NCBI GenBank assembly: GCA_016188145.1
Contig: JACPIJ010000014.1
Location: 1 to 34,243 of the forward strand
DNA length: 34,243 bases
Source of the DNA: Candidatus Woesearchaeota archaeon
GTDB lineage: Archaea; Nanobdellota; Nanobdellia; Woesearchaeales; UBA10216
Reading direction: 5' to 3'
The position numbers and the translations under genes are program-made. The notes beneath the pieces were generated by a model. The model made no database searches, was not told the origin of the DNA, and was given only the letters and a program-made list of their open reading frames with translations. This document shows, in pieces, positions 20,027 to 22,068 of the stretch (the stretch's first letter is position 1; every line of letters begins with the position of its first letter).

Positions 20027-21483
20027 TTACCCTTTCACAACGCCCAGCGGCACCAGCCTCGCAACGAGCTTTCCAAGCTTTGCCTCGTTGGAAACCCTAC
20101 AGACCTCATCAACATCCTTGTACGCTGGAACGTTTTCCTCTGCTATGCCTTTCCAGCTTGCTGCCTTAACTAGGATGCCGCGCTGCTCAAGTTCCTTCGC
20201 AACAGCCTCTCCCCTGAATCGCTTTATGGCCTCTGACCTTGACATCTCCCTTCCTGCGCCATGCGCAGTGCTGCCCCAGCTCTTCTCCTCTGCCTCGTTT
20301 GTGCCAACAAGAACGTAGCTTGCAGTGCCCATAGTGCCTGGAATAAATACTGGCTGCCCAACATCACGATACACTTCATTGACTTCTTCCCTTCCGGAAC
20401 CAAAGCTACGAGTGGCTCCTTTTCTATGAACGCACAACTCTTTAACCTCGCCATCGACCTTGTGCTTCTCTATCTTGCCGATGTTGTGGCAAACGTCATA
20501 AACCTGCTTCATGCCATGGTCAGTGCCCATTACTTTCTTGAAGCTGTCCCTTATCCAGTGCACTATCATTTGCCTGTTTGCGAATGCGTAGTTCATTCCC
20601 GCGCACATCGCCTTAAAGTACTTTTGGCCGAGTTCGGAGTTGAATGGCGCGTTAATCAGCTCGCGGTCCGGCAAATCTGCAAAGCCGTACTTCTTCTCCA
20701 TCTCCCTTATGTAGTCAGAAGCTACCTGGTGGCCCAATCCCCTGCTTCCGCAATGCACCATCACAACAACCTGCCCAACACCGCCGTCTATGCCGAATGC
20801 CCCAGCAGTTTTCTCGTCATAAACGGCATCAACAGCCTGAATTTCAAGGAAGTGGTTTCCGGCTCCGAGTGTTCCCAGTTGCGGCTTTCCCCTTGCGATT
20901 GCGGTGTGCGAGACCTGCTCCGGGTCTGCCTGTCTCATGTAGCCGTAGTCCTCTGTTGCTGCCAGATCGTCCTTGGTACCGTAGCCCTGCTCAAGGCTCC
21001 ATTTTGAGCCCTTTGCAAGGATTTCATTCATTTCAGAGTCGGAAAGCCTGGTGAGGCCGCCTCTTCCAACGCCTGATGGAACTTCAGTGAAAAGTGTATC
21101 GAGAAGCTGCTTGAGCTTTGGCTTTATATCTTCAACAGCCCAGTCTGTCCTTAAAAGCCGGACTCCGCAATTAACGTCGTAGCCAATACCGCCAGGGCTA
21201 ATTATGCCTTCTTCTGTGTCGAACGCTGCTACGCCGCCGATTGGAAATCCGTCTAAGGCTGAACCAGCGAAGTGCTGAGTCAGAAACCTTCGTGGGCGTC
21301 TGGCATCACGTACGAGTACTTCTGTATTCCTTTCAGGTGGGCTACGTTTGCAGCCTGCATCAAAGTCCTATCCTGCTGTATCTTCTGCACCAGCTTTTCC
21401 GATGCAAAAATCCTCGCAGGCACCTTCATTCCGCCGTGCTTCGGTATCTCCCACTCATACTCAGAGATTTTCTTTAGTTCCAT
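20027..21483 (-). CDS. rtcB: RtcB RNA ligase, split by a 32-nt BHB intron (exons 21483-21285 and 21252-20027)
   Basis: Exon 1 MELKKISEYEWEIPKHGGMKVPARIFAS...KYSYVMPDAHEG; exon 2 GFPIGGVAAFDTEEGIISPGGIGYDVNCGVRLLRTD...GAGNHFLEIQ...MVHCGSRGLGHQ...GTMGTASYVLVG...HGAGREMSRSEA. Spliced length 1425 nt, 474 aa plus stop. Confidence 0.92.
21253..21284 (-). other. Candidate BHB intron in rtcB (TCTGACTCAGCACTTCGCTGGTTCAGCCTTAG)
   Basis: Central 4-bp AAGG/CCTT, 3-nt bulges TT^T and AG^A, internal stem CTGACTCAGC-ACTTC-GCTGGTTCAG; removal restores HEG-Y(TAC)-GF. Confidence 0.88.
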
Positions 21484-21540: not shown

Positions 21541-21630
21541 ATAGCAAATCACTTAAGTTTTCGTATCTTTTCAAGTGATTTGCTATTAGGCAATAACAGA
21601 TGGATATACGATTATTAATGTTATTGCCTA
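21541..21630. repeat. Two abutting long hairpins between archease and rtcB
   Basis: 14-bp arms ATAGCAAATCACTT/AAGTGATTTGCTAT (21541-21586) and 12-bp arms TAGGCAATAACA/TGTTATTGCCTA (21587-21630). Confidence 0.95.
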
Positions 21631-21642
21631 TAGTTTCGAGTT

Positions 21643-22068
21643 TCATATGTCCACAACAACCTGCACAACCCACTGCTTGCCTTCTTGCCTTACAAACATG
21701 CTGTTATACGTGCACGCCTTTACCTGCGGGCCAATTGTTTCGTAGTTCTTTGCCTCATCTCCGGCTGCAACGGCAGAAAGTTTGTATTGTTTTTTGCTGC
21801 TGCTGATTGAAATCTTCCTTATTTTTGAAAGAAGGAAGTTATCTGTATCAAGCAGGATTATGAACTGCTCAAGGAATTGCTGCAGCAGGGATTCAAGGTC
21901 GCTTCCTTCTGCAGCAATCTTTTTTGTTGTTTTCGGCTTTACCTTTTCGGTTTCAACCATCACGTTAAACATCGCTGTAGCTGCATTGGCAAACGCCTCC
22001 TCAAGGGTTTTGCCATAAGCCCTGAACTTTACGTCTGCGGTGTGTGGAAGGTATTCGTACTTCTTCAT
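21643..22068 (-). CDS. Archease, RtcB activator
   Basis: MKKYEYLPHTADVKFRAYGKTLEEAFANAATAMFNVM...LDTDNFLLSKI...; encoded directly upstream of rtcB. Confidence 0.93.
   Translation of the reverse strand: MKKYEYLPHTADVKFRAYGKTLEEAFANAATAMFNVMVETEKVKPKTTKKIAAEGSDLESLLQQFLEQFIILLDTDNFLLSKIRKISISSSKKQYKLSAVAAGDEAKNYETIGPQVKACTYNSMFVRQEGKQWVVQVVVDI

Follow-up and report, generated by a model that had tools for sequence, protein, structure and literature searches.

Structure of the rtcB locus

The window, here the whole 34,243-nt stretch of DNA that was analyzed, is contig C39 of the metagenome assembly G000 (1.18 Mb, 81 contigs, 85% complete), in which rtcB is a single-copy gene. The parts of the gene, its neighbor, and the insert that breaks it are listed in Table 1. 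Read without splicing, the rtcB frame ends as ...MPDAHEGF*, with the TGA lying inside a 32-nt insert that also shifts the frame. Excision of the insert yields a 474-amino-acid RtcB with the motif HEGYGFPIGG and a single full-length domain. The preliminary description had placed a 32-nt, stop-containing interruption at exactly this position and had proposed that T|AC joins into a tyrosine codon; both hold, and the restored residue is Tyr67 of the spliced protein. Spliced RtcB matched PF01139 over 426/426 profile positions (7.5e-167) and Pyrococcus horikoshii RtcB (1UC2) from end to end (2.9e-177). Asp92 and Cys95, which we take to be metal-binding residues of RtcB, are both present after splicing and correspond to Asp95 and Cys98 of P. 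horikoshii.

Table 1. Features of the interrupted rtcB gene and of its insert (window positions)
Feature	Position	Strand	Description
Archease gene (RtcB cofactor)	21643..22068	-	Directly upstream of rtcB, same strand; PF01951 5.4e-43
rtcB exon 1	21285..21483	-	ATG at 21483; 199 nt; ends HEG + T, first base of Tyr67 codon
BHB intron, site A1 (probable)	21253..21284	-	32 nt, TCTGACTCAGCACTTCGCTGGTTCAGCCTTAG; splits Tyr67 as T|AC
rtcB exon 2	20027..21252	-	1226 nt with stop; AC GGA TTT CCA ... TAA
Central helix, 5' strand AAGG (exonic)	21287..21290	-	Covaries with intronic strand in relatives
5' bulge TT^T	21284..21286	-	Predicted cut between 21285 and 21284
Inner stem-loop CTGACTCAGC-ACTTC-GCTGGTTCAG	21259..21283	-	One C.U mismatch
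Central helix, 3' strand CCTT (intronic)	21255..21258	-	Pairs with AAGG
3' bulge AG^A	21252..21254	-	Predicted cut between 21253 and 21252

Between the archease gene and rtcB, at 21541-21629 on the minus strand, lies a pair of long, perfectly paired hairpins, AGGCAATAAC/GTTATTGCCT and one of about 16 bp around ATAGCAAATCACTT. These hairpins were not seen upstream of rtcB in G003 and G018, the only relatives in which the rtcB start was placed.

The insert has the geometry of a BHB intron

The BHB rule consists of a 4-bp helix and two 3-nt bulges, each cut after its second nucleotide, and a relaxed form of the motif is accepted by some EndA types. A broad-specificity EndA is on record (PMC12397907). 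The junctions of the insert can be laid out as exon-cg AAGG TT^T CTGACTCAGC ACTTC GCTGGTTCAG CCTT AG^A cg-exon, which gives a fully paired central helix (4/4), bulges of 3 + 3 nt, and an inner helix with 8 of 9 counted pairs that is closed by the loop ACTTC. The outer helix has just two base pairs (G-C and C-G) and is followed by a mismatch. The geometry first proposed (central helix AAGG/CCTT with 4/4 pairs, TT^T and AG^A as bulges, inner stem, loop ACTTC) is thus confirmed, with one C.U mismatch in the inner stem, and the outer helix was rightly called weak.

In the RNAfold centroid, the inner stem and the central helix were recovered together with the bulge on the 5' side. Total folding energy at the junction was ordinary (z = -0.23), and the case for a BHB rests on geometry and covariation. 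When the intron was shuffled with the exon junction held fixed, 5 of 200,000 shuffles (2.5e-5) reached four central pairs and at least 8/9 inner pairs. At this frequency, the structure is beyond chance at the sole position that repairs the protein.

Relatives carry introns at the same site

In a profile search of relatives, several genomes of the genus and of the family had rtcB broken at the same position of PF01139. At this site, A1 (G-T|AY-GF), introns of 29 to 32 nt were found in G000, G002, G003, G005, and G007 within the genus and in G013, G016, and G017 within the family, and T|AC restores the tyrosine in all of them. In G016, a change of exonic AAGG to AGGG is mirrored by a change of intronic CCTT to CCCT. 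A1 introns in other families have the central helices TTGG/CCAG, TAGG/CCTG, and GGGG/CCCT. Covariance model R1 scored the window intron at 42.7 bits, with the window sequence being part of the model; the A1 introns of G003 (E = 8.6e-5) and G005 (E = 5.3e-6) were also found, although both had been left out of the model.

Two genomes of the window's genus, G004 and G006, have clean, intronless rtcB sequence at the insert site, and the G004 RtcB protein is 94% identical across the C-terminal region. A break in the rtcB of G006 was rejected as an intron, since the gene spans two contig ends. Two further inserts at site A1, in G199 (L193) and G181 (L194), restore GYGFS upon excision and have a central helix of only about 2 bp; they are candidates for a degenerate BHB or for a different cleavage rule. 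In G164 (L097), an 18-nt in-frame insert with TAG precedes GACATAAAC in rtcB, about 75 nt downstream of the A1 intron, and can form a minimal BHB (GGCT/GGCT).

These comparisons bear on whether the insert could be an assembly or sequencing artefact, such as a hairpin-induced error in a single metagenome bin. The window does come from an 81-contig metagenome assembly, and the insert is a hairpin. However, separately named genomes, among them NC_groundwater_435, 725, and 270, UBA10216, and ARS1199, have a different hairpin sequence at the same site, and compensatory changes are present. We consider an artefact vanishingly unlikely; as judged from the sequences of independent genomes, this reading is already refuted.

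BHB introns occupy eight positions in rtcB

In total, 45 BHB introns of 23 to 33 nt were found in the rtcB genes of 37 genomes, metagenome assemblies among them, from 19 families of the window's order and class; 7 of the 19 carrier families belong to other orders of the same class. In a sample of the order drawn evenly, 26 of 262 rtcB-positive genomes had at least one rtcB intron by our own tally. The introns occupy eight positions, all in a stretch of about 30 codons (residues ~65 to 94) next to Asp92 and Cys95. Besides A1, these are A2 (GH|WGYG; G088, G245, G253, G137, G226, G272, G063, G174, G381, and G353), A3, inside a Trp codon (TG|G; G294 and G308), B1 (GIG-T|AT-D; G003, G007, G008, G014, G016, and G383), B2 (GFD|INCG; G236, G084, G346, and G328), B3 (G174), B4 (G296), and B5 (G308). 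G296 also has a 28-nt A1 intron, read by eye as GGGG AT^A ... CCCT TT^A, which is included in the total of 45 and lies outside the tabulated set of 44 used for the structure counts.

Within the tabulated set, the central helix had 4/4 pairs in 34 introns and 3/4 in 10, and in the ten A2 introns it was mostly closed by a G.A mismatch. Bulges of 3 + 3 nt fit at every site, even though the cut had been fixed by the protein motif. The preliminary description had read the insert as a BHB intron in rtcB and had called for a covariance and BHB search of related rtcB loci. Comparison of these loci showed same-site introns in relatives with a covarying structure, precise empty sites, and introns elsewhere in the gene, which together give the reading comparative support.

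Three other irregularities were seen in rtcB genes of these lineages. A 12-nt in-frame insert with TAA, (A)TTTAAACCTTAG, lies upstream of GFDINCG in L090 (G226, near 308), L083 (G088), L091 (G267), and L219 (G353); it fits a relaxed hBH motif with outer CCCG/CGGG and central GAGG/CCTT pairing and without an inner stem, and TTTAAACCTTAG is a possible hBH-type mini-intron in these four genomes. The rtcB of G009 (L041) lacks residues ~59 to 90 at about 715-725 and changes frame, in the stretch that holds most intron sites, through either deletion or misassembly. An apparent split of rtcB in G266 (L095) contains Ns and was rejected as an assembly fault.

Covariation and selection support removal at the RNA level

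Among the 14 A1 introns, 96.2% of cells were paired, compared with 78.0% after shuffling; there were 39 double-change cells compared with 12.3, the covariation score was 0.658 compared with 0.266, and 0 of 500 shuffles reached the observed covariation values. Over all sites (44 introns), 307 inner pairs were found, compared with a permuted mean of 169 (maximum of 205 in 5,000), all of these shuffle and permutation controls ignoring kinship between the sequences. Slid registers remove relatedness, and when the register of the A1 introns was slid by one base, pairing collapsed to 59% or less. Both helices covary, and the structure is kept by compensatory change.

It is conceivable that RtcB is made without RNA splicing, either by recoding (programmed frameshifting or readthrough) or, through internal initiation, as a two-chain enzyme. 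Exon 2 offers a long open reading frame, and 14 of the 44 tabulated inserts have a length that is a multiple of three and could be crossed by readthrough. The remaining lengths fall into two further classes (21 leave a remainder of 2 and 9 a remainder of 1). The three classes, mostly with stops, would need different recoding events, whereas one splicing rule covers them all. Two chains are difficult to reconcile with the inserts at the B sites, which fall at catalytic Asp92 and Cys95, residues hardly separable between chains. Recoding predicts neither the 3 + 3 bulges nor the covariation between exon and intron. We therefore regard production of RtcB without splicing as very improbable.

Spliced RtcB of G000 differed from that of G005, G007, and G003 by dN values of 0.048, 0.037, and 0.065 and dS values of 0.87, 1.12, and 1.76, respectively, and dN/dS was about 0.03 to 0.06 across both rtcB exons. 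By this measure, both exons are under strong purifying selection. A stop and a frameshift in an otherwise single-copy gene are what one would expect of a pseudogene in decay into which a hairpin element had inserted. A ratio this low over the whole spliced gene argues against decay, as do the 37 genomes in which the inserts lie exactly at BHB-compatible junctions and excision restores the RtcB motif in every case. A pseudogene is accordingly given almost no weight, and the insert is best read as an intron in a probably functional gene.

Distribution of introns and inteins

Carriage of the introns is patchy even within one genus, and the window's genus mixes carriers and noncarriers. In genus g124, a fully supported set of four genomes includes two with A1 and two with A2. 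On a tree that was built by a quick method from the C-terminal parts of 90 RtcB proteins and has many open forks, the minimum numbers of changes were at least 15 for A1, at least 8 for A2, and at least 4 each for B1 and B2, counts that are indicative only because weak forks were resolved arbitrarily and that do not separate gain from loss. The occupation of eight positions points to several gains.

RtcB inteins, seen as large in-frame inserts, lie near residue 95, within a few codons of the intron sites, in L035 (G004), L046 (G015), L052 (G044), L203 (G095), and others. Since many relatives have an intein that breaks the protein at about residue 95, this stretch is a hotspot for precisely removed elements. 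As far as these sequences indicate, the rtcB gene of this archaeal class is a hotspot, with repeated gain or loss of mini-introns and inteins near the active-site motifs.

Search for other introns and for the endonuclease

In the genome from which the window comes, two strict searches turned up no further intron of this kind. A loose BHB scan of 1.16 Mb of G000 gave 174 hits, compared with 161 to 195 in control geometries; the lack of an excess leaves room for weak BHB-interrupted genes. When coding scores were added to the scan, rtcB was among the two best matches. The other high-scoring matches resembled gene junctions, with a stop and then a start, and were rejected. No convincing second locus of this intron type was found in 39 genomes, in which covariance-model matches outside rtcB had E values of at least 0.018, at chance level.

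Of 29 relatives, 27 have EndA (PF01974), among them the seven other genomes of the genus. EndA was not found in G000, an absence attributed to the incompleteness of the assembly. The EndA matches in G013 and G024 look truncated. Aragorn predicted 19 intron-containing tRNA genes in G000; since only 2 of the 19 pass a strict BHB check, the tRNA introns lend little support.

Proposed splicing of the rtcB message

We estimate a probability of roughly 93% that the 32-nt insert is a true BHB intron that is cut by EndA and joined by RtcB with archease in a self-dependent loop, in a gene that is a hotspot for such elements. This reading builds on the observed sequence, structure, covariation, conservation, empty sites, selection, and distribution; we infer self-dependence and any regulatory role as well as EndA cutting and RtcB joining, the latter two from established EndA and RtcB biochemistry, including work on the cbf5 intron and EndA (PMC2738675) and on archease and RtcB (PMC3973293). 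EndA would recognize, in the rtcB message, the 4-bp helix with a 3-nt bulge on either side and cut after the second nucleotide of each bulge. RtcB, helped by the archease encoded just upstream, would then ligate the exons, from which the full-length protein would be made. As it is RtcB that joins the exons, maturation of rtcB mRNA would require existing RtcB and would proceed only where the protein is already present.

As an addition to this splicing explanation and not an alternative to it, the insert may act as a self-regulating switch: EndA cutting at low RtcB or archease would destroy the message, retention or loss would tune the ligase level, and this would be the selected reason for the concentration of introns in rtcB. 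The multiple sites and high turnover in rtcB are in keeping with such a switch, as are the lack of another convincing BHB-interrupted gene in G000 and of a second copy of this intron type in 39 genomes. However, G004 and G006 of the same genus live without any intron, and turnover at many positions also fits neutral or selfish gain. We consider a selected switch unlikely. A broader proposal, that BHB introns in the class prefer rtcB among mRNA hosts since it encodes the ligase, so that RtcB production would depend on existing EndA and RtcB activity in a self-referential loop, with many independent acquisitions at different codons and possibly including the 12-nt hBH-type mini-intron in four genomes, can be put forward tentatively, as somewhat less probable than its converse.

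The apparent recurrence of BHB mini-introns at multiple sites in the gene for the splicing ligase across one DPANN class is a larger finding than the single intron noted at the outset. Since the interrupted gene encodes the very enzyme that joins exons, and since it is interrupted time and again, at various codons and in many uncultured Woesearchaeota-type lineages, one can now test whether splicing machinery is able to regulate or addict itself, by what route mini-introns of archaea originate and spread to new places, and whether the type of EndA sets limits on introns in mRNA. In carrier genomes, rtcB is probably misannotated as broken or split, which could falsely suggest that tRNA ligation is absent.

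Comparison with known systems

A BHB intron in crenarchaeal cbf5 pre-mRNA was reportedly described by Watanabe (2002) and Yoshinari (2006). According to Yokobori et al. (2009), cbf5 was at that time the only archaeal pre-mRNA whose splicing had been confirmed, others being predicted (PMC2738675). Our literature searches, which extended to sources other than subscription papers and preprints, found experimental confirmation of archaeal mRNA BHB introns for cbf5 only and returned no description of rtcB introns or of Woesearchaeota introns, although a prior description may exist.

The cbf5 and rtcB introns are alike in having a protein-coding host, BHB-like junctions, EndA as the cutter (presumptively so for rtcB), and lineage-specific presence and absence. 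They differ in that the cbf5 intron belongs to Desulfurococcales and Sulfolobales, whereas the rtcB introns occur in DPANN, in the gene for the ligase itself; the latter are 23 to 33 nt long, are spread over at least eight sites of a single gene, which in some genomes carries two of them, and are patchy within a genus. With the BHB introns of archaeal tRNA and rRNA, the rtcB introns share the rule of a 4-bp helix, two 3-nt bulges, and a cut (predicted for rtcB) after the second bulge nucleotide. Unlike those introns, they have an mRNA host, in which the exonic helix strand is constrained by the protein and the intronic strand follows (AAGG/CCTT to AGGG/CCCT to TTGG/CCAG). RtcB inteins interrupt the same gene in the same short active-site stretch (about residue 95; G004, G015, G044, and others). 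The inteins, however, are removed at the protein level, are well over 1 kb long, and give open frames of about 880 to 1015 amino acids, whereas the introns are about 30 nt long and noncoding.
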